Virus record (IMG/VR): IMGVR_UViG_3300024354_000017
Location: 1-64,000 of that record
Source: a virus
Strand: one strand, 5' to 3'
DNA length: 64,000 bases
Part shown: piece after piece, positions 1,896 through 63,036 of the stretch
How the letters are laid out: each line of letters opens with the position of its first letter
How positions within the stretch are numbered: position 1 is the stretch's first letter
The notes under the pieces: generated by a model
Database searches by the model: none
What the model was told of the DNA's origin: nothing
Seen by the model: only the letters and a program-made list of their open reading frames with translations
Translations under genes and position numbers: made by a program

Positions 1896-1903
1896 GATAA
1901 ATA
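1896..1903 (+). promoter_or_regulatory. late promoter box (GATAAATA), 5 nt from ATG
   Basis: GATAAATA followed by five bases and then the ATG at 1909. With the T4 late-promoter geometry the transcript would start on the A of the start codon. Confidence 0.65.
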
Positions 1904-1908
1904 GTATT

Positions 1909-2667
1909 ATGAGTACAAACGACGAATCCCGCCAAAGCGTTTATAATTATTGCCGCACTATGCTAGGTGACGGTATGATTGATGTTGAGTTAGATCCAAC
2001 TCACTACGAAACAGCTCTAAATAGAGCCCTTGCAGTTTTTAGGCAAAGAAGCGATAATGCTGTAGAGGAATCTTACGTGTTTTTAACACTGGTACAAGAT
2101 CAAAACGAATATATTTTACCAAAAGAAATACAACAAGTCCGTCAAATTTTTAGACGAAGTGTTGGATCAAGGACTGGTAACGGCACGGGCGGAACAGTTT
2201 TTGAACCATTCAATTTAGCATACACAAACACATATTTGTTAAGCTCTACAAATATGGGAGGATTGCTAACATATGAATTATTTGCACAGTATCAAGAATT
2301 AGTTGGTAAAATGTTTGGTAGTTTTATTAACTTTACTTGGCATCCACAGAGTCACAAACTCATTATTCAGCAAAGACCACGAGGCGAAGAAAGTGTAATG
2401 CTTATGGTTTATAACAGTAAACCTGACTTTGCTATTATCGACGATATCTATTCAGGACAATGGGTTAAGGATTATGCACTGGCAAACTGCAAGATGATGC
2501 TAGGTCAAGCCCGCGAGAAGTTTGCTCAAATCGCAGGCCCACAGGGCGGTTCTAGCCTAAACGGCGCAGCACTTAAAACTGAAGCTCAAGCCGAAATGGA
2601 CAAGCTCATTGATGATTTGATGAAACTTGTACCAGGCGGTATGGGCTATGGTTGGATTATAGGTTGA
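1909..2667 (+). CDS. T4-like virion structural / neck-type protein
   Basis: A 252-residue protein. Blocks such as CRTMLGDGMIDVELDPTHYE, VRQIFRRS, a PFNLAYTNTYLL stretch, FTWHPQSHKL and GQAREKFAQIAGPQGGSSLN are typical of a structural protein conserved among T4-like phages of marine bacteria. It is probably part of the neck or tail and acts in late virion assembly. No catalytic motif is visible. It is divergent from the structural gene at 481-1875 and uses its own late box. No Shine-Dalgarno sequence precedes the ATG. Confidence 0.7.
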   Translation: MSTNDESRQSVYNYCRTMLGDGMIDVELDPTHYETALNRALAVFRQRSDNAVEESYVFLTLVQDQNEYILPKEIQQVRQIFRRSVGSRTGNGTGGTVFEPFNLAYTNTYLLSSTNMGGLLTYELFAQYQELVGKMFGSFINFTWHPQSHKLIIQQRPRGEESVMLMVYNSKPDFAIIDDIYSGQWVKDYALANCKMMLGQAREKFAQIAGPQGGSSLNGAALKTEAQAEMDKLIDDLMKLVPGGMGYGWIIG

Positions 2668-2692
2668 CCTTAATATTTTAGTATAGTATAAT
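2664..2692 (+). promoter_or_regulatory. sigma70-type promoter for the nucleotide kinase
   Basis: TTGACC, a 17-base spacer, then TATAAT. The -35 box begins inside the last codons of the upstream structural gene. It would give the kinase early expression independent of the late genes around it. Confidence 0.75.
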
Positions 2693-2712
2693 AGTCTTAA
2701 TTGGAGGCTATT

Positions 2713-3399
2713 ATGATTATAGGTATTTGTGGGTTTATCGGGTCAGGCAAGGATACAATTGCTGACTATCTAGTTAATTTTCACGAGTTTAGAAGAGAGT
2801 CTTTTGCTAATACACTAAAAGACGCAGTAAGTTCTGTGTTTGGCTGGGACAGGACGATGCTAGAAGGGCGAACTAAAGAAGCCCGGGAGTGGCGCGAACA
2901 AGTCGATCCGTGGTGGGCAGAACGTTTAGATATGCCCACGCTCACACCTCGTTGGGTTCTACAGTATTGGGGCACAGAAGTATGCCGCAAAGGCTTCCAC
3001 GATGACATTTGGATTGCTAGCCTAGAAAATAAACTTCGTAATTCCAAAGACAATGTTGTTATTTCAGATTGCCGGTTTCCTAATGAAATTGAAAGCATCC
3101 GTAAAGCTGGTGGACAGATTGTATGGGTACAGCGAGGAGAGTTACCGGATTGGTACGATGTAGCAGTGGCCGCAAATCAAGGACATAATTGGGCTGTTCA
3201 AGAATTAAAGATGCGAAAAATTCACGCTAGTGAAACTGCTTGGGTAGGAACTGAATTTGATCACGTCGTAGATAATAACAGCACTATCGATAATCTGTAT
3301 CAACAGGCAAGATCAATAGTCAGCGACCAAGTCCCCTTGACGCCAAGTGATGCCCTCCTTGTGAAGCACCTGAGCACAATTGGCACAGATTGTTTTTAA
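2713..3399 (+). CDS. 1: deoxynucleoside monophosphate kinase (T4 gp1-like)
   Basis: Phosphorylates dNMPs to dNDPs to feed phage DNA synthesis in the cytoplasm. The N-terminus MIIGICGFIGSGKDTIADYL holds the P-loop (about residues 7-15), and the block VVISDCRFPNEIESIRKAGG is typical of this kinase family. The ATG was chosen because GGAG lies 6 bases upstream; an in-frame TTG at 2701 has no such support. The last about 25 residues run on beyond the usual family end and overlap the 3' end of the antisense HNH-like gene, so the tail may be a late addition. Confidence 0.88.
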   Translation: MIIGICGFIGSGKDTIADYLVNFHEFRRESFANTLKDAVSSVFGWDRTMLEGRTKEAREWREQVDPWWAERLDMPTLTPRWVLQYWGTEVCRKGFHDDIWIASLENKLRNSKDNVVISDCRFPNEIESIRKAGGQIVWVQRGELPDWYDVAVAANQGHNWAVQELKMRKIHASETAWVGTEFDHVVDNNSTIDNLYQQARSIVSDQVPLTPSDALLVKHLSTIGTDCF

Positions 3400-3651
3400 G
3401 TTACTAGGGCGGCAGTTGTCTAAATTGCCGTCTATGTGAAATACCCTAAATACCTCCATGTGCGGGCTACGATGTCCGCACTTTTCACATTGTGACTTTA
3501 TTTTATAACCAGAACGTTTCCAACGTGGTATATGTGCCTTAGGTCCGTGAGCTAGACACGCTTCGCAGAGCGTTCTATAATAAGGTTTTTTACCTTTATA
3601 ATAATTTAATGCTCTAGGCCGTTCATTACAGGCCTTACAAAGTGGTCTCAT
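3313..3651 (-). CDS. HNH-like zinc-binding endonuclease candidate
   Basis: A 112-residue protein with three paired-cysteine groups: CKACNERPR near residue 5, CEKC near 55 and CANC near 90. The segment FHIDGNLDNCRPSNLKTIC resembles the HNH core (H-x-D-G, N-x-x-N-L). Such proteins in phages are often homing or free-standing nucleases. It sits alone on the minus strand between the kinase and the tail sheath gene and overlaps the kinase 3' end by 87 bases. The catalytic histidine arrangement is only partly canonical, so nuclease activity is an inference. Confidence 0.6.
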   Translation of the reverse strand: MRPLCKACNERPRALNYYKGKKPYYRTLCEACLAHGPKAHIPRWKRSGYKIKSQCEKCGHRSPHMEVFRVFHIDGNLDNCRPSNLKTICANCAQVLHKEGITWRQGDLVADY

Positions 3652-3656
3652 ATCAA

Positions 3657-3664
3657 TATTTACA
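3657..3664 (-). promoter_or_regulatory. late-type box (TGTAAATA), 5 nt from ATG
   Basis: The minus strand reads TGTAAATA, then TTGAT, then the ATG of the HNH-like gene. The spacing equals that of the other late boxes in the window. Confidence 0.5.
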
Positions 3665-3716
3665 CCTTTTCTTCCCCTTTTTCAGGTTGTATAACTACCC
3701 ATTTTTATAATAGTAC

Positions 3717-3724
3717 GCTAAATA
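3717..3724 (+). promoter_or_regulatory. late-type box (GCTAAATA) for tail sheath
   Basis: GCTAAATA lies 32 bases before the sheath ATG. Unlike most boxes here, it leaves a normal leader that includes CAGGAG as the ribosome site. Confidence 0.45.
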
Positions 3725-3756
3725 TTATGAGCAACTATTACCAGGAGAAATAGGGA

Positions 3757-6700
3757 ATGGCAACATTACAATCACCGGGCGTAGCGGTTACAGTTATCGA
3801 CGAGAGTTTTTATACACCAGCAGAACCTGGTACTACTCCTCTTATCGTAGTAGCTACAGCGCAAGATAAAGCAAACGGATCGGGAACAGGTACCGCGTCC
3901 GCAACAACAAAAGCCAATGCTGGTAAGGCATTTAAATTAACCAGTCAGAGAGATCTAACAGATTTCTTCGGTGTTCCTTTCTTTGAACAGACAGCGAGTT
4001 CGACTCCTGTACACGGTTCAGAAAGAAACGAATACGGATTATTAGCAGCATATAGTTTATTGGGTGTTAGCAACGCGGCATTTATCGTTCGTGCTGATAT
4101 TAACTTAGACGAACTAGAGGCTCAAGTAGACGCCCCGGGAGCGAACCCAACAAACGGTCAATGGTGGATTGACACTCAAGCAACAACTTGGGGTATTCAA
4201 GAATGGAATGGATCTGCACCAACAGTAGTTGGCGGGCAGAAATTTACAAACAAAGTTCCATTAGTATTAACCGACGCAGATACAGCAAAAATTTCTAACA
4301 ATGCTCCAAAAACATCAGTTGGTGCAATTGGTGACTACGCTGTAGTTTTCCAAACCGTTACAGGTGATGGATCATTTGGTGCAAACGAAGAGTTTGCAAG
4401 AGTTTACTTTAAATCAGCTGGTGCTCCAGCTTCGACTGGCGGAGTTGACGCTGTTGATGCAGGTCAGTGGGTACTAGTAGGTTCTACAGACTGGAAAGCA
4501 AGTTGGCCAGTAGCATCTGGTTCAGCATATTCAGGTTCGATAAGTGGTAACTTATATGTTAACAACAGTTTAATTGCTGGCGGAACAGTAGCTACTATTG
4601 CTTCAAACATTAATGCAGCAGCAATTACTGGTGTAAGTGCTCAAGCAATTAACAACAGATTGTACATTTATTCTAACGGCACATCAGCTGCTGACGGTGA
4701 TGCAGGCGATTCAACTGGTGCTGACGGTGCAGTTAAATTAGAAAATGGTACAGCAAACTGGAGCACATTGGGTATCACAGCTGGTACTTATTTGAGCCCA
4801 GCATTACAACAAACTCCACATACTTCTGTTCCAGCATTTAAGATTTCTGACAACGTTGGCACAGTCGGCGGAAACCCAACTGGTTCTGTATGGATTAAAA
4901 CAACTGAACCAAACAACGGCGCTCGTTGGAGAGTTAAGCGTTGGAGCGCAGGAACACTTTCTTGGGCATCATACGAAGCTCCAATCCACACATCAACTGG
5001 TGCAGCAAACTATTATCTAGATCGTAGTGGCGGTGGTGCAAATATTTCCAAAGATTCTTTATTTGTACAATCAAATGCTACAGAAGCTGCTGGATTTGAT
5101 GCAACTCCAGAAACTGCTGAATTTAGAGTATGGAAAAGAAACGTTTCTGCAAATGCTGTAACAAGCATTACATCAGCAGTTATTAAAGACAGCACACTAG
5201 CTGCCGGCCCATACAGTTTTGATCTAGCAGAATCATTAAAAGGACAAGCAACTTTAGACACAGCAGTTACAATTAATTTCTCAGCAGCTGGCAACAGCGA
5301 AGATGCTGATGCAATTGCAACAGCAATTAACGCAGCAGGATTTACCAACATTGTAGCTTCTGTAACAACAGTAAGTTCAACCTCAGCTAAGTTGGTTATT
5401 TCACACAAACTAGGCGGAGATTTCAGTCTAACAGACGGAACAGGTAGCCCAATTGGTGGATTGTTTACACCTTATAGTATCAACACATTATCTGGAACTG
5501 AAAACTTATATGAAGCTCAATCAGCCGCAGGATATGATTATCTAGCTTCTGGTTGGATGCCATTGGCAGCAAGCAATCCAAGATTTGCAGCAAGCGGTGA
5601 TGCTCCATTAAATGAGCCACAAGATGGACAAATGTGGTACAACCCTAACTTCTCAGAAGTTGACGTTATGGTACACAATGGCGCAACTTGGGTTGGTTAT
5701 AGACACGCTTCTGCTCAGTACGCAGAAAGCGCGACATCAACAAGAATTGGTTATGCTCCACTAGTTTCAGCTAGCAATCCATATCAAGCAGGCAGCACAC
5801 AAACAGGTGACCTATGGATCAGCACAGCCGATATGGAAAACTTCCCAACTATCTACAGATTTAATAATAATCTAACTGATATTGCGGATGTTTCTCAACG
5901 TTGGGAATTAGTTGATAAAACTGATCAAACAACAGAAGAGGGTATCTTGTTTGCTGATGCACGTTGGAACACAACAGGCACAACAAATGCAATGTCTACT
6001 ATCGAAGACCTATTGCAGAATAACTTCTTAGATCCAGACGCTCCAGATCCAGCACTATATCCAAAAGGTATGTTGCTATGGAATCTACGCAGAAGCGGCG
6101 GAAACGTTAAGAAATATATGAACGGTTACATTGATACAGCTAGCGATAACCCAAGAACAAGTACAGCTACCCTAGCAGGTAGTGCATTTGTAAGCGGTTC
6201 TGGTTTGTCAATGGAAGCGTATTGGACAGATCGTTGGGTGACAGCATCTGGTAATAACGAAGACGGTTCTGGTACATTTGGTCGTCACGCACAACGTAAG
6301 GTTGTTACACAAGCTCTTAAGAGTGTTGTTGATACAAGCAGCGAAATCCGTGATACAGAACGTCGCAACTTTAACTTGATTGCTTGCCCAGGATATCCTG
6401 AGCTAATGAGCAACCTAGTTAACTTAAACATTGACCGTGGAATTACAGCTTTTGTAATTGGTGACACACCATTGCGTTTAGCAGCAGATGCAACAAGCCT
6501 AACAACTTGGGGTACTAACGCTAACCTAGTAACAGACAACGGTGATGATGGTATTGTTACATATGACGAATATCTAGCAACTTACTATCCAAACGGTTAC
6601 ACAACAGACCTAAGCGGTGCAGGCGCAGTTGTTCCAGCATCACATATGATGTTGAAAACAATCGCACTAAGTGACAACGTAAGTTATCCTTGGTTTGCTC

Positions 6701-7215: not shown

Positions 7216-7217
7216 AA

Positions 7218-7865: not shown

Positions 7866-7884
7866 TTAACGTTAGTTCAAAAAG

Positions 7885-7909
7885 AGCTCGGTTAAACCGG
7901 GCTTTTTTT
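7885..7909 (+). terminator. factor-independent terminator after gp18-gp19
   Basis: An 8-bp stem (AGCTCGGT with ACCGGGCT, one G-U pair), 3-base loop and a following run of T. Confidence 0.85.
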
Positions 7910-7913
7910 GTGG

Positions 7914-7921
7914 CATAAATA
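7914..7921 (+). promoter_or_regulatory. late promoter box (CATAAATA), 5 nt from ATG
   Basis: CATAAATA, five bases, then the ATG at 7927. It immediately follows the terminator of the preceding unit. Confidence 0.65.
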
Positions 7922-7926
7922 TTAAT

Positions 7927-9003
7927 ATGGCCAACTACTTTACTAGATTCCTTACCGGTGTATCTGAAGGATTATTAAATCCCAAAGGACAACAAGCCAA
8001 TTGGCAACACGCCACACGACTATTCATTGATAATTCTTTTAGATTATCACCCAAGACTAAATTTTTATACTATGTTAGATTTGATTTAAACAAACATACA
8101 ATTAGGTCTCCTGGATGGTCAAATGAAAATTCTCAAGAAGTTGGGATGTTGGTAAAGTCTTGCGATTTACCAAAATTTAATTTTGATTCTATTGTTAAAA
8201 ATCAATATAATAGAAAAAAACTTGTATACAAAGGCATTAACTACGAGCCAATTAATATATCCTTACACGACGACAGTGACGGAGTAGTTAATGCGTTATG
8301 GGCAATATACTATGGCTATTATATTGCTGATAGATTGAATCCTAATGCAGCATATTCAGCTACACATCTTCGACCTGCAAACACTAATTTAGATCTATTC
8401 CGATACGGTTTAGATAACGATGTATCCGATCCATTTTTTAATTCAGTGAGTATATACACAATGAGTCGACGACGATTCATCGGATATACACTAGTGAATC
8501 CAAGAATCAAATCTTGGCAACACGGTGCTATGGACTATTCTGCATCAGAATTTAATGAAAGTCAAATGACATTAGAATACGAAGCTGTAAAATATTCAGC
8601 AGGAACTGTGTCATACAATAATCCTAAAGGTTTTGCAAATCTTCATTACGATACAACACCAAGTCCTATCTCAGTTGCCGGCGGAGGCGTGGCCACACTA
8701 ACAGGTGAAGGCGGTGTACTAGACGGACTAGAATCAGTGTTCGGTGCAGTAGGTGACGGAACAGCATTTGATAGTTGGGGTGGATTTATGAGTACTGCTA
8801 TCAAAGCAGTTAACACATACAAAAATGTTAAACAATTATCTACAGCACAATTAAAATCTGAAGCAATTAATATTCTAAGTAATCCTGGAAATATTTCATC
8901 AGCAGTATCCACAGTTGGAGGTGTTGTTGGCGCAATATTTCCAAAGAGTGCATCAACAGAAAATACAACTACTGCATCACAAAGAAATCTAACAGGAAAT
9001 TAA
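7927..9003 (+). CDS. tail-tube-like protein (gp48/gp54-type tube cap or initiator)
   Basis: A 358-residue protein whose first half resembles gp19: VKSCDLPKFNFDSIVKNQYN followed by INISLHDDSD corresponds to the gp19 strand pair. In T4, gp48 and gp54 have tube-like domains and nucleate tube assembly on the baseplate. The size and position suggest such a role, but I cannot tell gp48 from gp54. The C-terminal 120 residues are low in charge, rich in glycine, alanine and serine, and include VYSVFGAVGD-like helices. No ribosome site is visible; the late box sets the start. Confidence 0.65.
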   Translation: MANYFTRFLTGVSEGLLNPKGQQANWQHATRLFIDNSFRLSPKTKFLYYVRFDLNKHTIRSPGWSNENSQEVGMLVKSCDLPKFNFDSIVKNQYNRKKLVYKGINYEPINISLHDDSDGVVNALWAIYYGYYIADRLNPNAAYSATHLRPANTNLDLFRYGLDNDVSDPFFNSVSIYTMSRRRFIGYTLVNPRIKSWQHGAMDYSASEFNESQMTLEYEAVKYSAGTVSYNNPKGFANLHYDTTPSPISVAGGGVATLTGEGGVLDGLESVFGAVGDGTAFDSWGGFMSTAIKAVNTYKNVKQLSTAQLKSEAINILSNPGNISSAVSTVGGVVGAIFPKSASTENTTTASQRNLTGN

Positions 9004-9004
9004 T

Positions 9005-9370: not shown

Positions 9371-9810
9371 TGGCAAAATTTGCACAGGGAAGATTTGAAA
9401 TGAAAAATCCTGACAAGTATGTTGGGAAAAAAACTCCTTTGGCACGTAGTAGTTGGGAATTTGTTTTTATGCGAATGCTTGACGAACATCCTGGCGTACA
9501 AAATTGGGCCAGTGAAAGTATACAAATACCTTATAGAGATCCCTTAACAGGAAAAAGCACAATCTATGTCCCAGACTTCTTTATTGTCTATGTTGACAAG
9601 AATGGCAGTAAACACGCCGAAGTAGTAGAAGTTAAACCTAGCAATCATACTATTTTAGAAAAAGTTGGCAAGAGCTTGTACAACCAAGAACAGTATGTTA
9701 AGAATATGGCCAAATGGGAAGCAGCAAATAAATGGTGCAAACAACAGGGTGTTAGATTTCGAGTAGTTAGTGAAAATGATATTTTTCACCAAGGCGGCAA
9801 ACGGAAATAA
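9370..9810 (+). CDS. 4: head completion protein gp4
   Basis: Acts after DNA packaging to finish the head so that it can join a tail. The 146-residue protein has the gp4 pattern LARSSWEFVFMRMLDEHPGV, then YVPDFFIVY and VVEVKP, a TnsA/nuclease-like core (D of PDF, E and K of EVK). Length is close to T4 gp4 (150). In a late gene run with the terminase genes. Confidence 0.88.
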   Translation: MAKFAQGRFEMKNPDKYVGKKTPLARSSWEFVFMRMLDEHPGVQNWASESIQIPYRDPLTGKSTIYVPDFFIVYVDKNGSKHAEVVEVKPSNHTILEKVGKSLYNQEQYVKNMAKWEAANKWCKQQGVRFRVVSENDIFHQGGKRK

Positions 9811-9817
9811 GTAAAGT

Positions 9818-10300
9818 ATGACCAAGAAACTTGAAGAACTCTTTAACTTAGATTCAGCTGAGGCTGTAAAGGCTGCTGAAGATACTACTCCTGTTCCAAC
9901 CCACGAGCAGGTTAAAAGTTTAGATGATAGTTATGCTGAAGTAGCTAAAATTACCAGCACGTTGCCGCAGATACAAGAATTAGAAAATCTAGACGAAAAC
10001 GAGCTAGATAACCTAGCTAAAAAAGCAGAGCAGGCCTACGACGATCTTATGGATTTAGGTATGAACGTAGAAGTACGTTATGCTAGTCGTATTTTTGAAG
10101 TAGCTAGTTCTATGATGGGCAACGCTATTACTGCTAAAACTAACAAAATTGAAAAGAAATTAAAAGCTGTTGACCTACAACTTAAAAAATTAAAAATTGA
10201 TAACGATGCGGGTAACGATCCAAACGATGTTATCAACGGCCAAGGGTATGTGATCACAGACCGCAATGAGCTACTGAAAAAATTAGGCGGAAAAGCATAA
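9818..10300 (+). CDS. 16: terminase small subunit gp16
   Basis: Recognises DNA for packaging and stimulates the large subunit. The 160-residue protein is almost entirely helical, with a central region (about residues 60-135, DDLMDLGMNVEVRYASRIFE, then IEKKLKAVDLQLKKLK) that matches T4 gp16 coiled-coil architecture. Location between gp4 and gp17 supports the call, although three small genes separate it from gp17. Confidence 0.78.
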   Translation: MTKKLEELFNLDSAEAVKAAEDTTPVPTHEQVKSLDDSYAEVAKITSTLPQIQELENLDENELDNLAKKAEQAYDDLMDLGMNVEVRYASRIFEVASSMMGNAITAKTNKIEKKLKAVDLQLKKLKIDNDAGNDPNDVINGQGYVITDRNELLKKLGGKA

Positions 10301-10303
10301 ATA
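10296..10303 (+). promoter_or_regulatory. late promoter box (CATAAATA), 5 nt from ATG
   Basis: CATAAATA overlaps the stop codon of gp16; five bases later comes the ATG at 10309. Confidence 0.65.
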
Positions 10304-10308
10304 CTACT

Positions 10309-10857
10309 ATGAAAACTTTTAAAGAATATCTTGCCGAAAGCAAAAAGAGCTACCCTTTTAGATTAAAGGTAGCAGGCGAATTGCCTGAAAATTTTGTTAA
10401 AGAACTCAAAGATTGCATCGGAAAAGCAAATCCAGCAATCATTGAAAAATCTAAAACACCTATTCAAGCAACTCCACTAGATTTTCCGGAACTAAGCAAT
10501 GTTGAAGTTCACACATTTGAAGTAGTATGCGAATATCCAATTACTGCTCCTGAGCTTGCAGAACACGTAAAATACTTTGTTCCAGAATCTAATTTTAGAG
10601 TCAGAAACGGTGGTGATGCAGGCGAAGTAGAACACAATACAGCGGATATGGAACCAAGTGGTGAATCAGTATTAGCAGAGCCTTACAACGATAAGGTAAA
10701 GCACAAAGACTACTTCGGCGATGATTTTAATAAAAGTTTCTTGAAAGATTTAGCAAAGGCCGCCAAGGAACGCAAAAAAGACGGTGTGCAGACAGAATAC
10801 AAGCTGCCTAAGGCCAAACAAGACAAAGCAGGCGTTAAGAGCGCCTTAGGGAGTTAA
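10309..10857 (+). CDS. conserved protein with capsid-targeting-like N-terminus
   Basis: A 182-residue protein starting MKTFKEYLAES. This resembles the T4 capsid targeting sequence at the start of internal head proteins (for example MKTYQEFIAE). The middle has two alpha-beta units (FRLKVAGELPENFVKEL and VEVHTFEVVCEYPITAPELA) that look like a small ferredoxin-like domain. The tail is charged and lysine-rich. I recognise similar proteins in marine T4-like phages without known function. It may be an internal head protein (inference). Confidence 0.65.
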   Translation: MKTFKEYLAESKKSYPFRLKVAGELPENFVKELKDCIGKANPAIIEKSKTPIQATPLDFPELSNVEVHTFEVVCEYPITAPELAEHVKYFVPESNFRVRNGGDAGEVEHNTADMEPSGESVLAEPYNDKVKHKDYFGDDFNKSFLKDLAKAAKERKKDGVQTEYKLPKAKQDKAGVKSALGS

Positions 10858-10858
10858 T

Positions 10859-11955: not shown

Positions 11956-11970
11956 TTGTATAAACACTCA

Positions 11971-11997
11971 AATAGGGCCTCCGGGCCCTATTTTTTT
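11971..11997 (+). terminator. factor-independent terminator before gp17
   Basis: ATAGGGCC pairs with GGCCCTAT across a 4-base loop, followed by seven T. Confidence 0.9.
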
Positions 11998-11998
11998 C

Positions 11999-12006
11999 AT
12001 TAAATA
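11999..12006 (+). promoter_or_regulatory. late-type box (ATTAAATA), 5 nt from gp17 ATG
   Basis: ATTAAATA then five bases then ATG. The second base pair deviates from NATAAATA, but the spacing is that of the other late boxes. Confidence 0.5.
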
Positions 12007-12011
12007 ATAGT

Positions 12012-13598
12012 ATGGCAAAATCATTAGACGGTAATTTAGTTAAGAAAGCTCACGCTCAAACCAGGTATACACTTGAGGAAGTAGAACATCTTGAAAAGTG
12101 TATGGATCCTGTAAACGGGCCGTTGTACTTTGCTAGAAACTTTATTAAAATTCAACACCCGGTTAGAGGTAGCATACCTTTTGAACCTTATGAATATCAG
12201 GTTAGACTAATACAGGCCTATCACGAAAACAAGCAATGTATTGCAATGTTACCGCGTCAGATGGGTAAAACAACCTGTGCAGTTGCTTACCTGCTGTGGT
12301 ACACAATGTTTGTTCCAGACTGCCAAGTTCTTATTGCCGCACACAAATATGAAGGTGCTAAAGACATTATGGATCGTTACCGTTTTGGTTACGAAAACTT
12401 ACCTGACTTTATTCGTGCTGGTGTTTATTCATACAATAGAAACACAATCGAATACGATAACGGAGCACGTATTCAAGCTACCACAACAACAGAAAACACC
12501 GGTCGTGGTAAGTCTTTATCATTAATATACTGTGACGAGTTTGCATTTGTTCAACCACCTGAAAAGGCCAAAGAGTTTTGGACTGCCCTATCTCCTACAT
12601 TGGCTACAGGTGGTAAAGCACTGATTACATCAACACCAAACTCGGACGAAGATCAGTTTGCTCTTATCTGGACTGAAGCTAATAAACGTTTTGACGAGTA
12701 CGGCAACGAGACAAAATTAGGACCTAACGGATTCTTTCCATTCTTTGCTCACTGGCGTGAAAACCCGTTACGCGACGATGCCTGGGCCTCTGTCGAACGT
12801 GCTAAAATTGGTGAAGAACGTTTCCGCCGAGAGTTTGAATGTGAGTTCTTGATCTTCGACGAAACACTAATCAATTCAGTTAAACTTGCAGCATTAGAGG
12901 GAATTGATCCAACTATGACCATGGGTCAAACACGTTGGTATAAAGATATAGATTCTAGATGCACATATCTTGTTGCTCTAGATCCTAGTCTAGGTACAGG
13001 CGGTGACTACGGTGCTATACAGGTTTTTGAAATGCCCTCAATGACTCAGGTAGCGGAATGGCATCATAATACTACTCCAGTACAGCAACAGGTCAAACAT
13101 ATGCGTGAAATATTGAAATACATTCAATCACGCGGAGAAGAAAAAGGCGGTGTTCCGCAAATTTATTATTCTGTTGAAAATAATTCTCTAGGTGAAGCCG
13201 CTCTTATTGTTATTAACGACATAGGAGAAGAAAACTTTCCTGGTTTATTCTTAAGTGAGCCTATACGTAAAGGACACGTTCGTAAATTCCGTAAAGGATT
13301 TAATACTACACATCGCAGTAAAGTTACTGCTTGTTCTCAGTTTAAAAATTTACTAGAAACTAATAAGATGACAATTACATCTAAACCGCTGATTTCTGAG
13401 TTAAAAACGTATGTTGCCAGCGGACTTGGTTTTAAGGCCAAAACAGGAGAACACGACGACCTAGTGAGCTCTACGTTACTGATCATACGTATGGCAGACG
13501 TACTAGCAGATTGGGATCCTACAGTTTACGAAAAAATGACTGAAAAAATTACAGAGGAATCTATGCCGCTGCCTATCTTTGTAAGCAGCGGGTTTTGA
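12012..13598 (+). CDS. 17: terminase large subunit gp17
   Basis: The packaging motor ATPase and headful nuclease. Walker A is PRQMGKT (about residues 81-87) and Walker B with catalytic glutamate is LIYCDEF (about 171-177). The RNase H-like nuclease domain begins near LVALDPSLGTGGDY (about residue 320). STPNSDEDQF matches the coupling motif. At 528 residues it is shorter than T4 gp17 (610), typical of marine relatives. A late box for the next gene is built into its last codons. Confidence 0.95.
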   Translation: MAKSLDGNLVKKAHAQTRYTLEEVEHLEKCMDPVNGPLYFARNFIKIQHPVRGSIPFEPYEYQVRLIQAYHENKQCIAMLPRQMGKTTCAVAYLLWYTMFVPDCQVLIAAHKYEGAKDIMDRYRFGYENLPDFIRAGVYSYNRNTIEYDNGARIQATTTTENTGRGKSLSLIYCDEFAFVQPPEKAKEFWTALSPTLATGGKALITSTPNSDEDQFALIWTEANKRFDEYGNETKLGPNGFFPFFAHWRENPLRDDAWASVERAKIGEERFRREFECEFLIFDETLINSVKLAALEGIDPTMTMGQTRWYKDIDSRCTYLVALDPSLGTGGDYGAIQVFEMPSMTQVAEWHHNTTPVQQQVKHMREILKYIQSRGEEKGGVPQIYYSVENNSLGEAALIVINDIGEENFPGLFLSEPIRKGHVRKFRKGFNTTHRSKVTACSQFKNLLETNKMTITSKPLISELKTYVASGLGFKAKTGEHDDLVSSTLLIIRMADVLADWDPTVYEKMTEKITEESMPLPIFVSSGF

Positions 13599-13604
13599 TA
13601 AATA
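13597..13604 (+). promoter_or_regulatory. late promoter box (GATAAATA), 5 nt from ATG
   Basis: GATAAATA overlaps the TGA of gp17; after five bases comes the ATG at 13610. Confidence 0.65.
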
Positions 13605-13609
13605 TAACT

Positions 13610-15364
13610 ATGGACGCAAGAAACAATATCGCTACAGATTTATTCTATAAAATTAGAAGCCGTTTTAAGAACCTAAAATTAGGTGCTGAAACAGGCCAAA
13701 TTACCATCAATCCTGAAGAAGCTAGATTCTTTGATTTTGATTATATGGAAGGTCAAACACCGATGGGTCACGTTAGTGTTAGCCTAGCAGAACCAAATTC
13801 TATGAAGGTATACTTCAGTCACGGAATTGCCGAAGGTATGGATGATCATCAGAAAGGTAATTGGTATAAGTTTTTGCGAGAATTACGTGAATTTGCTAAA
13901 CGCAGACTATTAGCATTTGACACAAGAGATATTGCTAAGGATAATTTAGATCGTAGAGATTATGAATTTTTAGCTGCAAATGCGCAACCTAAGCAAACAC
14001 AACCAAACACAATACAGAAACCAGTCGGAGAAAGCATTATGGCAGAAAGCTCAATGTACGGTAGCAGATTAATGAGTTACCAGAATTTAATGGATACTAA
14101 ATTGATTATCAAACATAGTCAAGCAGTAATGGATGATCAACAACCTGGCGCACGAACAAGACACATTGCAGCACTTTTTGTAGAAAATCAAGACGGTGAA
14201 AGATTTAAATATCCTTTCATCCACCTAGCTGGTGCTCGTGCTATGCAACGCCACGTGGCCAACGGTGGTGTACCCTATGACGACATTGGTAAAAGTATTA
14301 TTCAAATGAGTGAAGAAATTGCTCAATTAAAGAGCTTTGGTGGTTATGTTGTTCGTAACGATCTAATGAATTCAGAAACAAATTCAGTGGTTGAACGTTC
14401 TACACAATACCTAAATAGCCTACGCGAGCAAATTAAGGCCCTAGCAAAACAAAGTCACTACGAAGCATATAGAGAAAATTTCCAGGCATATGACAGCGAA
14501 GAAGTACCGCAGGATGTAGTTGAAGATTTCAAAGAAAAATTTACAGTACGATCATTTAAAGAAGACATTGCATCAGTATTTCCGGTCTTATATAGACTAA
14601 TGAAAGAAGGAAACACTATAGGCTACGACGACATAGTCGCTTTAACACAAGAAGATATGCAAGAAGACATCGAAGTTGAGCAGACACAAGATGATCCATT
14701 TGCCAAGTTTGAAAACTGGGTAATGGGTCTTGGAGAAGAGTCTGCTATAACTTCTGAAGATCCAGAAGAACAACAATCAGCCTTACAAAAATTACAAGAA
14801 TTAGTTGGACAAGAATTTCCTGCAGGTACAGATGGCACAAACGCAATTGAAAGTTTAAAAGGCCTAATTGAAGATCCAGAATTATACAAACGAATTAAGG
14901 CAACAGCGGCGGAAGATGCAAATGCAGACGTCCGCCCTCAAATCCAAGGTTGGTTAGAATTAAATGCACCAGAGGCACTAGAGTCATTAGACTTTGGCGA
15001 TATGGGAGCAGCCGCAGCTGAAGAACCAGCAGCAGCAGAAGTTCCTGCAGAAGAACCGGCAGAAGTTCCAGCAGCAGCACCTGCAGAAGAACCACAAATG
15101 GCCAGCGATGATCCAGAAGAAAGACACGAGGGCAAGATGGGCGTTAAAGAATTAGCTGAATTCATTCATTCATTTTACGACCAAGAATCAGGTACATTCC
15201 CCAAAGGCCCAGAAGGTGTTTGCACAATGGTAGGCAAGAAGTTTGGTGAGCAGGCAGAGCAGGTTGCTCGCAAATTTGTTGAAAGAATGGCTCCTGAGCA
15301 GACTACAGAACAAAATCCTGAATTGGCTGAACTAGCAAGAGTCAGAGAACTAGCAGGCCTGTAA
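13610..15364 (+). CDS. large conserved T4-like phage protein of unknown function
   Basis: A 584-residue protein. I chose the ATG behind the late box over an in-frame TTG at 13595 that would overlap gp17. The first 400 residues are structured: TDLFYKIRSRFKNLKLG, then RARTRHIAALFVENQDGERF-like strands near residue 180 and a helical region. From about 470 it has an alanine/glutamate/proline linker (EEPAAAEVPAEEPAEVPAAA) and then a conserved C-terminal helical domain. I recognise homologues in marine T4-like phages but no function. It is probably made late and may be an internal or scaffold protein (inference). Confidence 0.65.
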   Translation: MDARNNIATDLFYKIRSRFKNLKLGAETGQITINPEEARFFDFDYMEGQTPMGHVSVSLAEPNSMKVYFSHGIAEGMDDHQKGNWYKFLRELREFAKRRLLAFDTRDIAKDNLDRRDYEFLAANAQPKQTQPNTIQKPVGESIMAESSMYGSRLMSYQNLMDTKLIIKHSQAVMDDQQPGARTRHIAALFVENQDGERFKYPFIHLAGARAMQRHVANGGVPYDDIGKSIIQMSEEIAQLKSFGGYVVRNDLMNSETNSVVERSTQYLNSLREQIKALAKQSHYEAYRENFQAYDSEEVPQDVVEDFKEKFTVRSFKEDIASVFPVLYRLMKEGNTIGYDDIVALTQEDMQEDIEVEQTQDDPFAKFENWVMGLGEESAITSEDPEEQQSALQKLQELVGQEFPAGTDGTNAIESLKGLIEDPELYKRIKATAAEDANADVRPQIQGWLELNAPEALESLDFGDMGAAAAEEPAAAEVPAEEPAEVPAAAPAEEPQMASDDPEERHEGKMGVKELAEFIHSFYDQESGTFPKGPEGVCTMVGKKFGEQAEQVARKFVERMAPEQTTEQNPELAELARVRELAGL

Positions 15365-15378
15365 TAGAAGGATAATCA

Positions 15379-16794: not shown

Positions 16795-16800
16795 TAATTC

Positions 16801-16829
16801 AAAAAAGGCTCTTAGGAGCCTTTTTTTTT
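16801..16829 (+). terminator. factor-independent terminator after adhesin gene
   Basis: GGCTC and GAGCC stem extended by A-T pairs, ending in nine T. Confidence 0.9.
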
Positions 16830-16924
16830 GGATAAAATATTTGTCAACTTTTTTGTATGCTAGAACGTTAATATAATACACAGGGAAGGTTTTTCTGTGT
16901 TTAACCTAAAAAAAGGAAATTACT

Positions 16925-17098: not shown

Positions 17099-17106
17099 TT
17101 TTAATT

Positions 17107-17137
17107 GCCCCTTGTCAACGAAAGTTGGCACTGGGGC
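17107..17137 (+). other. RNA hairpin with GAAA tetraloop
   Basis: Outer stem GCCCC/GGGGC and inner stem TGTCAAC/GTTGGCA, closed by a GNRA loop (GAAA). No U-run follows. It lies between two genes for exported proteins and may be a processing or stability element; a TATAAT-like box follows at 17143. Confidence 0.5.
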
Positions 17138-17163
17138 GTTATTATAATATCAAGGAGGGTTTT

Positions 17164-21841: not shown

Positions 21842-22695
21842 ATTAAGCTCTCAACAGTTTTCTTTAATCCGTCTTTCAATGATGTATATTCTGTAAATCC
21901 GGTTAATTTTTTCATCAGGGTAGTATCGGGGCAACGTCTTTTTGCACTACCTTTTGGACCTGGAAGTATTTCTAATTTCTCCGGATCTACTCCCATTATG
22001 TCTAAAATAATTCTTGCTACTTCAGCAATTTCATTTTCTTCTTGTCTGCCTACGTTAACTATATAATTTTTATTATTTGTCACTAGTCTATGAGTTATTT
22101 CAACAGCATCGTCGATATAACAAAAACTTCTTGTATCATTGCCTTTGATATAATACTCACCTTTGGCAACACGTTCAACAAATTCGCTGATGAAATGATC
22201 TACCTGACCAGGACCGTAGATATTAAAGTATCTAATAATTAACCAATCTAATCCAGAATTAGCAACTAAGTTTTCTCCTAGTGCTTTTGGTAAACTATAG
22301 CTCCAGCGAGGATTGATCACATCTTCAAACATCACAGGAACTGATTCATCAGTGGGAACTGGATATAGTCCTTTATCAATAGCACCATTAAAAATTTCAC
22401 AAGTGCTTGTAAAAACAAATTTAGTATCTGTACCTTTATATCTATTAATTAAATTAAATGTTGGTAAAGTATTATTAAATGCAACTTCAGTTGGTTTTTC
22501 GTAGAACAGTTTGGTTCCATTGGTCGCGGCCATATGAACAACGACATCACAATTTGGAGAAGAATTTGTTATGTCTGGTAAACAAAGGTCTTGGCCTTCT
22601 CTTTTATCAAATACTACGGTTTCGTGTTTATCTTTAATTAAATTATAATAATGGCTACCAATAAATCCTCTATGGCCTGTAAGTAATATTTTCAT
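21838..22695 (-). CDS. NAD-dependent sugar epimerase/dehydratase
   Basis: Extended SDR family enzyme acting on a nucleotide sugar. GHRGFIG (7-13) binds NAD; TSTCE near 96-100 and Y133-x3-K137 (YSLPK) form the active site. 285 residues is typical. Paired with the dehydrogenase, it suggests a small nucleotide-sugar pathway, for example UDP-glucuronate to a decarboxylated or epimerised sugar. The substrate cannot be told from sequence alone. Confidence 0.88.
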   Translation of the reverse strand: MKILLTGHRGFIGSHYYNLIKDKHETVVFDKREGQDLCLPDITNSSPNCDVVVHMAATNGTKLFYEKPTEVAFNNTLPTFNLINRYKGTDTKFVFTSTCEIFNGAIDKGLYPVPTDESVPVMFEDVINPRWSYSLPKALGENLVANSGLDWLIIRYFNIYGPGQVDHFISEFVERVAKGEYYIKGNDTRSFCYIDDAVEITHRLVTNNKNYIVNVGRQEENEIAEVARIILDIMGVDPEKLEILPGPKGSAKRRCPDTTLMKKLTGFTEYTSLKDGLKKTVESLI

Positions 22696-22700
22696 AGAAA

Positions 22701-22708
22701 TATTTATC
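22701..22708 (-). promoter_or_regulatory. late promoter box (GATAAATA), 5 nt from ATG
   Basis: Minus-strand GATAAATA, then TTTCT, then the epimerase ATG. Confidence 0.65.
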
Positions 22709-42263: not shown

Positions 42264-42486
42264 GGTAGAGCTGTTAAAGTGGTTACCACACGAGGGCGAA
42301 TATATTGAAATCGATTGGCCTAAAGTACACCGTACGATTGGTGTAGATCATACTAAATGGTTGTTAAATCAAAATCATACTAATTGTCAGGTTGTGCTTG
42401 AAAGAAACGATATGTATTGTCGTTTAATAGCAGAATTCTACGATGAACGCACCTTAGCTACTTACTATCTAATGTGGGCTAAATAA
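42250..42486 (+). CDS. small conserved protein after gp41
   Basis: A 78-residue protein (KVELLKWLPHEGEYIEIDWP, then NCQVVLERNDMYCRLIAEFY). Several starts are possible (GTG 42241, ATG 42247 or 42250); none has a strong ribosome site, and I chose the last one. It overlaps the 3' end of gp41. Function unknown. Confidence 0.55.
   Translation: MKTSKVELLKWLPHEGEYIEIDWPKVHRTIGVDHTKWLLNQNHTNCQVVLERNDMYCRLIAEFYDERTLATYYLMWAK
42478..42485 (+). promoter_or_regulatory. late-type box (GCTAAATA), 5 nt from ATG
   Basis: GCTAAATA is built into the last codons of the gene before it; then ATGAT and the ATG at 42491. Confidence 0.5.
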
Positions 42487-42490
42487 TGAT

Positions 42491-42871
42491 ATGCGAGCCA
42501 AAGAATTTATTAACGAAGCTAGAGAAGGCAGTATCCAAGACGATGTTGCTGATGCACTACCATCAACCTTTTCTATTCCATCATTACAGAACCAAGATCC
42601 GTACAAACAATACAGATTTGGTATGGCCCTAGCTAGAGCAGGTGGAAGTAAGCCTGCAGATCGAGACCAGTTTTCCCCTAACACTCCTTGGGGCGAAAAC
42701 GCTATTGTTGTAGCATATGACAACGAAAGCGAAAAAATGGTCAAGCAGGCAGCAAAAGAAGTTCACGCAGGTGCCGTTAAACTAATTAGCACTCCAAAAT
42801 CAACCGAAGCTAAAGATGTTAATATAACAAGTTCTGTAGCAAAGCCAAAACGTAACAAATACGGAGTTTAA
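42491..42871 (+). CDS. conserved protein with capsid-targeting-like N-terminus
   Basis: A 126-residue protein starting MRAKEFINEAREGS, close to the T4 capsid targeting sequence pattern. The middle has PYKQYRFGMALARAGGSKPA and TPWGENAIVVAYDNESE, a pattern I recall from marine T4-like phages. It may be packaged in the head (inference). Late box upstream supports a virion role. Confidence 0.62.
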   Translation: MRAKEFINEAREGSIQDDVADALPSTFSIPSLQNQDPYKQYRFGMALARAGGSKPADRDQFSPNTPWGENAIVVAYDNESEKMVKQAAKEVHAGAVKLISTPKSTEAKDVNITSSVAKPKRNKYGV

Positions 42872-45814: not shown

Positions 45815-45822
45815 ATTAAATA
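45815..45822 (+). promoter_or_regulatory. late-type box (ATTAAATA), 5 nt from ATG
   Basis: ATTAAATA, TTGAT, ATG: the same geometry and variant box as the terminase gp17 promoter. Confidence 0.5.
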
Positions 45823-45827
45823 TTGAT

Positions 45828-46451
45828 ATGCAGACCCTAGGCTTATTTTCCGAACCCGTGACTCGCCAACAGATTTGGCCCGGAACCTGGCAACAGCAGC
45901 TTGATCAGATTCCCTGTGAATATCAGACCAATCACTGTTACTCCCTGTCCCAGAGAGTTTTGGACACAGTTCCAGATCTACACCAAATAATTGAACAAAG
46001 GGTTCAACAGTGGGCTGAACAGGTTCTGGGCATCACGGATACACTCTACATCACAGAAAGTTGGATCAATGTCTATAATACCGGCGACTCCATACATCAG
46101 CACAGCCACCCTAATTCCATAGTGTCGGGAACTTGGTATTGGTCAACACCCGAAACAGAGATTAGATTTCACAAACAGGGCTTAAACTCATCTACACACT
46201 GGACTATGAAACTGGATCAAAGGCCCACAGCCTGGTCACAGACAGAAGTCATACTGCCCGTAGAACAAGGTGATCTACTCCTATGGCCCAGTTATCTACA
46301 GCACTCAACCACAGCACACACCAGCGAAGAACCAAGAAAAACTCTGAGCTTTAATGCAATGCCTAGATCTTGGGGAAGTAATTTCTATAGAGTCGGCGAA
46401 GCCGCAGCGCAAATTCCTGAGCGCGAAGCGCAGCAGCGCAAGATTTTTTAG
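45828..46451 (+). CDS. 2OG-Fe(II) oxygenase-like protein
   Basis: A 207-residue protein of the putative 2OG-Fe(II) oxygenase family. SIHQHSHPNSIVSGTWYWS holds the metal histidines (about 90-94), LLLWPSYLQHSTTAH the distal His, and EEPRKTLSFNAMP the Arg. The last 20 residues (GEAAAQIPEREAQQRKIF) are encoded by a GC-rich repeat-like stretch that does not fit the fold. Confidence 0.75.
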   Translation: MQTLGLFSEPVTRQQIWPGTWQQQLDQIPCEYQTNHCYSLSQRVLDTVPDLHQIIEQRVQQWAEQVLGITDTLYITESWINVYNTGDSIHQHSHPNSIVSGTWYWSTPETEIRFHKQGLNSSTHWTMKLDQRPTAWSQTEVILPVEQGDLLLWPSYLQHSTTAHTSEEPRKTLSFNAMPRSWGSNFYRVGEAAAQIPEREAQQRKIF

Positions 46452-61259: not shown

Positions 61260-61337
<78 letters not shown>

Positions 61338-61341
61338 TAAC

Positions 61342-61418
61342 TGGCCACGCATAAGGGATTCGAACCCCTGACCCACAGCTTAGAAGGCTGTTGCTCTATC
61401 CAACTGAGCTAATGCGTG
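61342..61418 (-). tRNA. tRNA-Arg (TCT)
   Basis: Acceptor CACGCAT/ATGCGTG, anticodon loop CTTCTAA, T loop TTCGAAT and encoded CCA. It reads AGA, a codon frequent in the low-GC late genes here. Confidence 0.95.
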
Positions 61419-61425
61419 ATTTAAA

Positions 61426-61510
61426 TGGTGCGACTGACCAGAATCGAACTGGTATGCATTGCTGCGAGGGATTTTAAGTCCCTTGTGTCTACCTATTTCA
61501 CCACAGTCGC
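61426..61510 (-). tRNA. tRNA-Leu (TAA)
   Basis: Acceptor GCGACTG/CAGTCGC, anticodon loop CTTAAAA, long variable arm (typical of Leu) and encoded CCA. It reads TTA, abundant in the phage genes of this window. Confidence 0.95.
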
Positions 61511-61878: not shown

Positions 61879-62106
61879 TTAGTCAGTATTCTGCAGCGGG
61901 GCCTTCCCCAGTTTCCGTGCTGCACGTTCACGAATTGCTGCAAAGATCTTATAGTTGTGATTGTCCCGCCAGATCATCTCAGCTACGCAGCGTGCCAGAA
62001 AGCCCGTGGCCCAAATGAATGCCAGAGTCTTGTCTTGACTAGTATAGGGATTAACTCCCGCGATCTCACGCAGAACCCATTCAGCTATGTCTTTTGAGTC
62101 TTTCAT
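61879..62106 (-). CDS. small protein, unknown function
   Basis: A 75-residue protein (MKDSKDIAEWVLREIAGVNP, then a hydrophobic AFIWATGFLARCVAEMIW). Its last codons contain a shortened copy of the GCAGCGGGGCC repeat. No clear promoter upstream. Family not recognised. Confidence 0.5.
   Translation of the reverse strand: MKDSKDIAEWVLREIAGVNPYTSQDKTLAFIWATGFLARCVAEMIWRDNHNYKIFAAIRERAARKLGKAPLQNTD
61893..61905. repeat. short copy of GCAGCGGGGCC repeat
   Basis: GCAGCGGGGCCTT, part of the dispersed family, here in coding sequence. Confidence 0.5.
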
Positions 62107-62118
62107 TATGTTACCTAC

Positions 62119-62132
62119 GCAGCGGGGCCACT
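62119..62132. repeat. dispersed repeat GCAGCGGGGCCACT
   Basis: Complete copy, intergenic, just after the ATG region of the 75-residue gene and 200 bases from the next copy. Confidence 0.65.
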
Positions 62133-62277
62133 ATAAGCAGAGACTCAGGATAATGGCTAGACCACAGGCAAGCACTATACGAGCATGACGGCGCTCTAGC
62201 CAACTCTTACTGTATATAGATTCGTATATGAGTATGAGGACCAAGGGCAGAGTTGCACAGCATATATAGGTTAACAT
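62131..62277 (-). CDS. 48-residue membrane protein
   Basis: MLTYICCATLPLVLILIYES and a second helix VLACGLAIILSLCL flank a basic loop (KSWLERRHARI). AGGAG lies 7 bases before the ATG, so I prefer this start over one further upstream. Function unknown. Confidence 0.58.
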   Translation of the reverse strand: MLTYICCATLPLVLILIYESIYSKSWLERRHARIVLACGLAIILSLCL

Positions 62278-62318
62278 CAGATCGCTCCTGAGTATACAGT
62301 ATATATCTAGAATCACTC

Positions 62319-62332
62319 GCAGCGGGGCCACT
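62319..62332. repeat. dispersed repeat GCAGCGGGGCCACT
   Basis: Complete copy at the left edge of the non-coding region. Confidence 0.65.
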
Positions 62333-62680
62333 GTATATAGGTCGTTAGAACAGTCTAGAACGCTAGTTCTAGAGTGAATTCGTGTCTAGAAAACGGTCAA
62401 ACGGTTCGAACTAGGGAGATCTACTGTAAATTTTATAGTAGACTAAAAGTCTAGAACGGTGGTATGAGAGGCTATGCTCAAATGGTCACACAATTTCACA
62501 CTTTATCACACTTTCTACTACTTTTCTGCACCCTTTTCCAATCCCCACCAGGTCGCTAGACCTCTATACGCATCTTGGGGGTCAGTAAATCACACTTACT
62601 GAGCTTTTTCCAGCGTATATACGCACATTGAGCGTGCTCACGCTAGACTTATTATGCGTATACGTATATGTCACTATAGC

Positions 62681-62692
62681 GCAGCGGGGCCT
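62681..62692. repeat. short copy of GCAGCGGGGCC repeat
   Basis: GCAGCGGGGCCT at the right part of the non-coding region. Confidence 0.55.
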
Positions 62693-62765
62693 TTAATGAC
62701 TTAGTATATAGTAAACATAGTATACACATACTACCGCTATGCTCACTACCAGTGCTTGTGTTCGA

Positions 62766-63023
62766 TTATCCATTTGTAAATAACTCCTCACTCTCTATAG
62801 TATCTTCTACTATGCAGTAAGTTGCTTCTAGTATGTCTCCGTCTATGTTACGACACAACTCTACTTCCCAGTTATCAAACATATATACACGTTCAATACG
62901 AGTTATGAAACCCAGTCTATGATTACGCGATCTCTGTGCTATACGAGCACCAGCAAGAGTTCTGTACCATTTTAGGCGTCTCAGAGTATCTTTATGCACT
63001 AAGTAATAGACCGTTGTCTGCAT
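62766..63023 (-). CDS. small protein, unknown function
   Basis: An 85-residue protein (VYYLVHKDTLRRLKWYRTLA, then RIERVYMFDNWEVELCRNID). A basic first half and acidic end. A GTTAAATA box lies 5 bases before the ATG. Divergent from the + strand genes. Family not recognised. Confidence 0.55.
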   Translation of the reverse strand: MQTTVYYLVHKDTLRRLKWYRTLAGARIAQRSRNHRLGFITRIERVYMFDNWEVELCRNIDGDILEATYCIVEDTIESEELFTNG

Positions 63024-63028
63024 AGGGA

Positions 63029-63036
63029 TATTTAAC
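63029..63036 (-). promoter_or_regulatory. late-type box (GTTAAATA), 5 nt from ATG
   Basis: Minus-strand GTTAAATA, TCCCT, ATG: same spacing as the other boxes. Confidence 0.5.

Follow-up and report, generated by a model that had tools for sequence, protein, structure and literature searches.

A probable T4-type late promoter box five nucleotides before start codons: predicted leaderless messages in an uncultured virus and its relatives

The stretch of DNA analysed here (the window) comprises positions 1 to 64,000 of IMG/VR record IMGVR_UViG_3300024354_000017, an uncultured virus record of 83,279 bases; the window is 40% GC. At ten genes, on both strands, the hexamer TAAATA ends exactly five nucleotides before the ATG (TAAATA-N5-ATG, hereafter N5; Table 1). 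We consider it very probable that these sites are T4-type late promoters fused to start codons, and that the messages made from them would be leaderless. An initial annotation, which worked from the letters of the window and a list of its open reading frames (ORFs), had reported the ten boxes and the absence of a Shine-Dalgarno sequence. All ten are where it placed them, each ATG opens a frame of 85-584 codons, and the five bases between box and start leave no room for a Shine-Dalgarno sequence at any of the ten, so that none fits in a message beginning at the ATG. Eight of the ten predicted proteins match a PHROG family and two match none. An eleventh exact match, with its TAAATA at 3447, was rejected as a gene start, as it opens 16 codons only.

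The spacing is far more frequent than chance would give. Exactly five nucleotides after TAAATA, an ATG is found at 11 of the 40 hexamers in the window, against 0.71 per other offset (binomial P 8e-11), and at 11 of the 50 in the whole record (P 1e-9). The genome-wide scan against shuffled sequence proposed in the initial annotation bears this out: 100 dinucleotide shuffles of the record hold a mean of 1.97 and a maximum of 7 N5 sites, against the 11 observed, and the reversed pattern, our standing control, occurs once. TAAGTA at the same distance is found once in the record and once in its control. Two related uncultured records behave alike in the offset test, G001 with 14 of 145 TAAATA (P 3e-6) and G002, of which 280,000 of 280,019 bases were used, with 20 of 158 (P 1e-10); Pelagibacter phage HTVC008M has the excess as well (P 1e-5). 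G002 is also clear of its 100 dinucleotide shuffles (20 sites against a mean of 5.9 and a maximum of 12). When every hexamer is scored at every offset before the 103 ORF starts of the record, with no motif given, TAAATA at -11 ranks first, and it does likewise in G002, in the stretches read of a third relative, G014, and in HTVC008M. It comes eighth in G001, where most of the higher-ranked words are Shine-Dalgarno words; in T4 and phage PA5oct it falls outside the top eight, where Shine-Dalgarno-like words lead. The 103 ORFs begin with ATG and have at least 100 codons, and many need not be genes; a box lies 4-6 nt before a start in 13, a Shine-Dalgarno sequence precedes 61, and 29 have neither.

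The same spacing was found among relatives, where the initial annotation had suggested that it be sought. In the loci of 74 close relatives, whose terminases are 83-90% identical to that of this virus (six loci with an identical terminase were dropped beforehand), an ATG lies at +5 after 293 of 705 TAAATA, at +4 after 26 and at +6 after 5; contigs overlap in origin, and the 293 of 705, like the 131 against 20 and the 619 N5 sites given below, includes near-identical stretches. Other offsets hold 0-21 each, except for 36 at +18 and 52 at +31, peaks that may be repeated orthologous loci. Among deeper relatives, found through the terminases of PA5oct and of Sinorhizobium phage Phosso, the TAAATA peak is still at +5 (98/781 and 188/955, respectively). 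TAAGTA peaks at +5 in the PA5oct-terminase set (52/435), less clearly in the Phosso-terminase set (38/672).

The terminase gene provides the deepest comparison. In 79 close relatives its box stands at N5 in 60, at N4 in 16 and at N6 in one, with no box in two; the letters of the spacer vary, the base at -1 is T in 77, and a hairpin with a T-tract lies directly upstream of the box in nearly all of them (by eye). A wider set of 251 terminases, which includes this virus and 11 cultured phages fetched for contrast, has a box 4-7 nt before the ATG in 196, a Shine-Dalgarno sequence in 8, neither in 40, and 7 not judgeable; the box persists to about 50% identity. A quick tree of 74 representative terminases shows the box clustered, with 11 changes against a shuffled mean of 24.4, and present in 40 of the 73 judged. 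The terminase of PA5oct, which has a Shine-Dalgarno sequence, is nested in a group of 55 rows of which 39 are boxed, so its present state may be derived. In the Phosso-like loci L212-L214 the terminase start has neither box nor Shine-Dalgarno sequence and follows shortly after a GC-rich hairpin. We take the arrangement to be old and maintained by selection across a large clade of uncultured jumbo phages.

Gene by gene, the orthologues separate into sets that hold the box and sets that hold a leader. Our test was generous: TAA[AG]TA counted if it stood 4-6 nt ahead of an ATG, GTG or TTG, and this codon could lie up to 15 codons from the aligned start. The leadered sets serve as its false-positive control: the box is found in 2/94 orthologues of a second tail tube gene, 0/200 of SSB and 0/70 of gene 10859, whereas a Shine-Dalgarno sequence is kept in 91/94, 198/200 and 70/70. 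It is likewise present in all orthologues of genes 11506 (17/17) and 15379 (8/8). On the other side, the box precedes the start in 32/32 orthologues of the HNH gene, and the counts for the remaining boxed genes are given in Table 1. For the virion gene at 10309, the orthologues of at least 60% identity have the box in 18 of 19, and the three epimerase orthologues with an N5 box are those of at least 80% identity. Genes 9005 and 9370 (9005-9810) sit between predicted leaderless genes and commonly show neither signal: 41 of 71 orthologues of 9005, with a Shine-Dalgarno sequence in the other 30, and 117 of 150 of 9370, with a Shine-Dalgarno sequence in 22 and a box in 10. By this comparison of sequences, a box beside the ATG is conserved in part of the gene set, chiefly in virion genes. 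The word 'systematic', which the initial annotation used for such a leaderless late programme, overstates the case: the programme is mixed, not wholly leaderless, with the tail sheath gene, which has a leadered box, and many other genes keeping their leaders.

Where would transcription begin? According to a passage in PMC1524935, the T4 late promoter TATAAATA spans -13 to -6, and a box in that position makes the A of these ATGs the predicted +1. The base composition agrees. After reduction of 619 N5 sites to 90 non-redundant by N-terminus, the -1 base is a pyrimidine in 82, against 44 of 96 for the leadered TAAATA boxes of the same set (P 1e-11); that leadered class must include some boxes that arose by chance, such as the one at 2018, which lies within a gene. 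In our reading, a purine at -1 would start transcription one base early and spoil the 5' AUG. One review states that, in some species, leaderless translation is weaker when the 5' end and the start codon are apart (PMC9031893). The profile of the 90 sites, in which TAAATA is invariant because the sites were selected by it, has A at 0.50 at -12, T at only 0.16 at -13 and no signal near -35. The full TATAAATA is uncommon at N5 sites and it is the core that matches. The earlier suggestion that TAAATA is the core gains from this degeneracy of the two preceding bases, and from the separate +5 peak of TAAGTA in one set of relatives. Codons 2-7 of the boxed genes change mostly at the third position, clearly so for the tail tube gene, 9818, the terminase and the virion gene at 13610 (four of the seven genes with data; the comparison holds no data for the epimerase), which points to the ATG as the probable start.

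A gp55-type late sigma factor is present in relatives. A T4 gp55 query, gp55 being part of the T4 late promoter system, matched in all ten records searched at E 0.01 or better, four of them close relatives. E values were 3e-7 to 3e-6 in the close relatives and 2e-6 in Atu_ph07, T4 and Syn9 matched strongly, and the matches were weak (range 0.001-0.007) in Phosso (0.0015), PA5oct (0.003) and CBB. Two of the gp55-type proteins were tested, those of G001 and G002, and both match PHROG 12791, a family annotated as 'sigma factor for late transcription' (at 2e-78 and 2e-80), as well as PHROG 234. The 83-kb record, which is a partial genome, has no match to the G001 and G002 proteins. The proposal that the A of the ATG is +1 thus draws support from the -13 to -6 position of the T4 box, the gp55-type factor in relatives, the pyrimidine at -1 and the conserved box-ATG orthologue sets, with leaderlessness itself a prediction.

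We propose that the arrangement would work as follows. By analogy with T4, a gp55-family late sigma factor on host RNA polymerase would recognise NNTAAATA at -13 to -6. Transcription would then start at the first A of the ATG, aided by the pyrimidine at -1, as the base composition suggests. The resulting message would have neither leader nor Shine-Dalgarno sequence, and initiation on its first gene would depend on the 5' AUG and would probably involve 70S ribosomes, as known for leaderless mRNAs. Both the exact +1 and this mode of initiation are predictions. Shine-Dalgarno starts would serve the remaining genes as well as late-type boxes like the one before the tail sheath gene.

Enrichment of N5 over the reversed pattern extends well beyond the window. 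Ten large records of close relatives hold 131 N5 sites against 20, each above its own control (from 5 v 1 to 20 v 2), and whole-record counts are 40 v 0 in G014, 27 v 0 in G016 and 17 v 5 in G011. Other uncultured records are not clearly enriched (G012 5 v 3, G013 5 v 2, G015 30 v 20). Two cultured phages are, Xanthomonas phage XacN1 with 11 v 1, where the 11 include two pairs resembling terminal-repeat copies, and HTVC008M with 14 v 4. The annotators of the HTVC008M record picked 12 of its 14 sites as starts (197 of its 198 coding sequence starts were compared, one at base 1 being omitted), which lends support from a cultured T4-like phage outside this lineage, and in XacN1 three of the four sites in 125-165 kb are annotated starts. 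No clear enrichment was found in the cultured phages Vibrio 2.275.O (3 v 3), CM1 (8 v 5), Munch (8 v 11), RaK2 (5 v 17), XaC1 (2 v 11), Aeh1 (1 v 2), P-SSM2 (6 v 6) and PhiW-14 (0 v 0), nor in T4 (10 v 5), Syn9 (3 v 3), PA5oct (15 v 12), Phosso (3 v 2), Atu_ph07 (15 v 9) and CBB (4 v 10). The initial annotation had called such a programme unusual for a T4-like phage. T4 does not use it. The arrangement is not private to this virus, being common in its uncultured relatives and enriched in two cultured phages. In stretches of 20 kb picked for holding N5 sites, and so not giving whole-genome rates, N5 accounts for 37 of 100 TAAATA in G014 and 10 of 34 in G016. G016, a 500-kb phage of which 80 kb were read (L345-L348), prefers a spacing of four among those 34 hexamers (17 at k=4 against 10 at k=5), which may point to a start that has shifted or to another sigma factor. 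A pelagimyophage survey reports failure to predict middle and late promoters for those phages (PMC7029224); placement of promoters right against the ATG could account in part for the failure with the late ones. Two relatives lie in betaproteobacterial and Pelagibacter metagenome-assembled genomes, perhaps as binned phage contigs, and we claim no host from them.

Several results weigh against fused promoters and leaderless messages, and they are collected here. Many orthologues of 9370 and 9005 have neither a box nor a recognised Shine-Dalgarno sequence, and the lack of a Shine-Dalgarno sequence is on its own therefore weak evidence. Conservation fails or is partial at several of the ten sites: the box at 42491 is found in 0/14 orthologues, for those at 45828 and 63023 no orthologue was found in the loci compared, the epimerase keeps it in 3/8, and 10309 in 72/136 (47 have a Shine-Dalgarno sequence). 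The N5 count of G001 lies within its shuffle range (14 against a mean of 7.3 and a maximum of 16), and a marginal excess at k=5 is seen in T4 too (10 against 5.4 expected, P 0.05). The third-position excess in codons 2-7 has the same direction but is weak for Ad2, HNH and 10309. Leadered boxes are as many as leaderless ones (96 against 90, non-redundant) and have no strong T at -1, so they fix +1 poorly. A T4 gp45 query against ten records matched T4 alone, not even PA5oct, and was uninformative. Finally, late timing is deduced from gene function and the analogy with T4.

Three other explanations deserve weighing. The boxes could be promoters whose +1 lies a few bases upstream of the ATG or inside it, giving a very short leader, or a message without the ATG that is read from a downstream start. 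Spacing does vary from 4 to 6 among relatives, with the G016 stretches favouring four, and this gives the idea some substance, but codons 2-7 evolve as coding sequence, clearly in four of seven genes, the pyrimidine at -1 recurs in 82 of 90 sites, and a leader of 1-2 nt would still lack a Shine-Dalgarno sequence; we regard it as unlikely. Translation might also proceed mainly from upstream read-through transcripts, by coupling or 70S scanning, with the boxes as minor internal promoters. Genes 13610 and 10309 start only 11 and 8 nt past the preceding stop, and the frequent absence of both signals at 9005 and 9370 suggests that translation lacking a Shine-Dalgarno sequence does occur inside operons. 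However, the terminase promoter abuts a terminator-like hairpin in nearly all of the 79 close relatives (by eye), and read-through leaves conservation of the box at a fixed distance from the ATG unexplained, which makes this account quite unlikely.

The remaining alternative would take TAAATA before ATG as an effect of composition, or as a translational enhancer in the form of an AT-rich, unstructured start, with no promoter involved. The hexamer is all A and T and the window is 40% GC, which speaks for this, but the reversed pattern is far below N5 in the ten large relatives, a relative of 59% GC has 40 sites against none in its reversed control, and in the 74 loci other A+T hexamers peak nearby only where they overlap TAAATA. 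The likeness of the box to the T4 late promoter and the late sigma factor of relatives also tell against it. We hold a compositional origin to be highly improbable, and return to T4-type late promoters fused to start codons as the best account of these sites.

Table 1. Box-start sites and associated features of the window (N4, N5, N6: nucleotides between box and start; SD, Shine-Dalgarno sequence; fractions are of orthologues)
Feature	Position	Strand	Family match and orthologues
TAAATA-N5-ATG, head-tail adaptor Ad2-like gene 1909-2667	1898..1911	+	PHROG 211, E 4e-35; N5 11/11
TAAATA-N5-ATG, small HNH endonuclease-like gene 3313-3651	3649..3662	-	PHROG 2255, E 3e-7; N5 29/32, N4 3/32
TAAATA box, then Shine-Dalgarno leader (contrast), tail sheath gene 3757-7215	3719..3759	+	PHROG 10581, E 7e-219; SD 34/38
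TAAATA-N5-ATG, tail tube-like gene 7927-9003	7916..7929	+	PHROG 4542, E 7e-14; N4-6 64/67, SD 3/67
TAAGTA-N4-ATG variant, gene 9818-10300	9808..9820	+	N4-6 118/153
TAAATA-N5-ATG, virion structural-like gene 10309-10857	10298..10311	+	PHROG 14802, E 2e-4; N4-6 72/136, SD 47/136
Intrinsic terminator-like hairpin and T-tract abutting terminase promoter	11970..11997	+	10-pair stem, terminator scan (hairpin 11970-11993)
TAAATA-N5-ATG, terminase large subunit gene 12012-13598	12001..12014	+	PHROG 36964, E 2e-113; N4-6 200/236
TAAATA-N5-ATG, virion structural-like gene 13610-15364	13599..13612	+	PHROG 13484, E 3e-16; N4-6 130/165
TAAATA-N5-ATG, nucleotide-sugar epimerase-like gene 21838-22695	22693..22706	-	PHROG 540, E 8e-49; N5 3/8, SD 5/8
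TAAATA-N5-ATG, gene of unknown function 42491-42871	42480..42493	+	no PHROG; box 0/14
TAAATA-N5-ATG, 2OG-Fe(II) oxygenase-like gene 45828-46451	45817..45830	+	PHROG 81, E 3e-34; no orthologue found in loci compared
TAAATA-N5-ATG, gene of unknown function 62766-63023	63021..63034	-	no PHROG; no orthologue found in loci compared

The variant box before 9818 is a site absent from the initial annotation; it overlaps the stop codon of the preceding gene and is hence less certain. By eye, two of the ten sites, 7927 and 12012, lie directly 3' of a GC-rich hairpin and T-run. A terminator scan of 1500-16000 listed only 11970-11993 of these two hairpins, and the number of terminator-like sites in that interval was not above shuffles (14 against a mean of 11.4). 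At 3651(-) the sequence upstream of the box includes a run of purines. Between the divergent genes 22695(-) and 22744(+), at 22701-22717, two late-type boxes stand on opposite strands, 5 nt apart. Three tRNA genes, Met-CAT, Arg-TCT and Leu-TAA, occupy 61260-61510 on the minus strand, and G002 has an identical CAT tRNA; a search of the window with Rfam returned three tRNAs and nothing else. A near-identity search of phage records with positions 1-20000 of the window gave no match.

A larger role for the arrangement can be imagined. Late infection in this huge-phage clade might move a gene set from Shine-Dalgarno (30S) to 5'-AUG (70S) initiation, with the late sigma factor fixing +1 on the start codon and phage ribosome parts such as bS21 aiding, so that these mRNAs would escape host and phage regulation exerted through Shine-Dalgarno leaders; as a whole we find this scheme unlikely. 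A GGG-CCC anticodon stem is a hallmark of initiator tRNAs. We rejected a phage initiator tRNA as an aid, since among the 98 tRNAs that ARAGORN called in the loci nine are CAT and none of these has that stem; the CAT tRNA of the window lacks it too and is not initiator-like. A passage in PMC9723584 describes bS21 as touching the helix of mRNA and anti-Shine-Dalgarno. We also rejected bS21 as the cause: it is present in 11 of 17 records, including the non-enriched PA5oct and Phosso, and not found in the N5-enriched G003 (18 v 3) and G004 (16 v 3). In G001 (loci L095, L098) a single 20-kb stretch holds 28 tRNA genes, and there is also a tmRNA-like call; G002 (L104) has such a call too, with a long tag.

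More modestly, the arrangement may allow terminator, promoter and start to be joined compactly, or late mRNAs to do without Shine-Dalgarno pairing. Across many uncultured huge phages, mRNAs without leaders would be predictable from sequence alone. This would help to identify late promoters and true start codons in such phages, and a role of leaderless translation in a lytic programme would become testable.

Comparison with known systems shows what is shared and what is not. The T4 late promoter, served by gp55, gp33 and gp45, shares with the present boxes the TAAATA core, the absence of a -35 signal and virion genes on both strands, and relatives of the present virus carry a gp55-type factor. 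In T4, however, 24 of the 32 TATAAATA have a start preceded by a Shine-Dalgarno sequence downstream, 19 of those 24 at 17-29 nt, whereas here the gap is 5 nt with no such sequence, and the first two bases of the box are degenerate. The best-scoring cultured terminases are PA5oct-like (55% identity), followed by Phosso (52%), Atu_ph07 (48%) and CBB and its kin (44%). PA5oct and Phosso have related terminase and structural genes and a weak gp55 match, but their N5 counts are near control, and PA5oct boxes have Shine-Dalgarno leaders, for example before the sheath gene, a comparison of sequences and not of positions. One annotated structural gene of PA5oct (MK797984, EST35_0222; L082 36974-36987) does start at TAAATA-N5-ATG, which may be what is left of a leaderless mode. 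HTVC008M and XacN1 are N5-enriched, and most of their checked sites are annotated starts, but they are distant on the terminase tree and their own terminases have no box.

Outside phages with T4-type promoters, the nearest likeness is to the TA-led leaderless genes found above all in Deinococcus-Thermus and Actinobacteria, in which, as passages in PMC12340547 and PMC3160421 describe, a -10-like box lies directly before the ORF. Those are cell genes with a sigma-70-like -10 (TANNNT), whereas the present boxes are of late-sigma type and precede phage genes. Among phages, lambda has a leaderless gene, cI. Leaderless initiation in lambda is recorded in a passage of PMC3160421, while a passage of PMC5312081 calls phage transcripts 'often leaderless' and gives leaders of 26-491 nt for the jumbo phage AR9; neither passage concerns T4-type late promoters. 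Our search, covering titles and the openings of abstracts, with most subscription papers outside its coverage, turned up nothing on T4-type late promoters that are leaderless; the review PMC7598289 contains neither 'leaderless' nor 'untranslated', 'UTR' or 'leader', and PMC7824862 does not contain 'leaderless'. The 'often leaderless' remark in that passage of PMC5312081 lowers the surprise, which stays high for a set that is conserved and linked to a late sigma factor. What is proposed here is a new combination of two known elements: the T4-type late promoter, and leaderless initiation of the kind found in TA-led bacterial genes.

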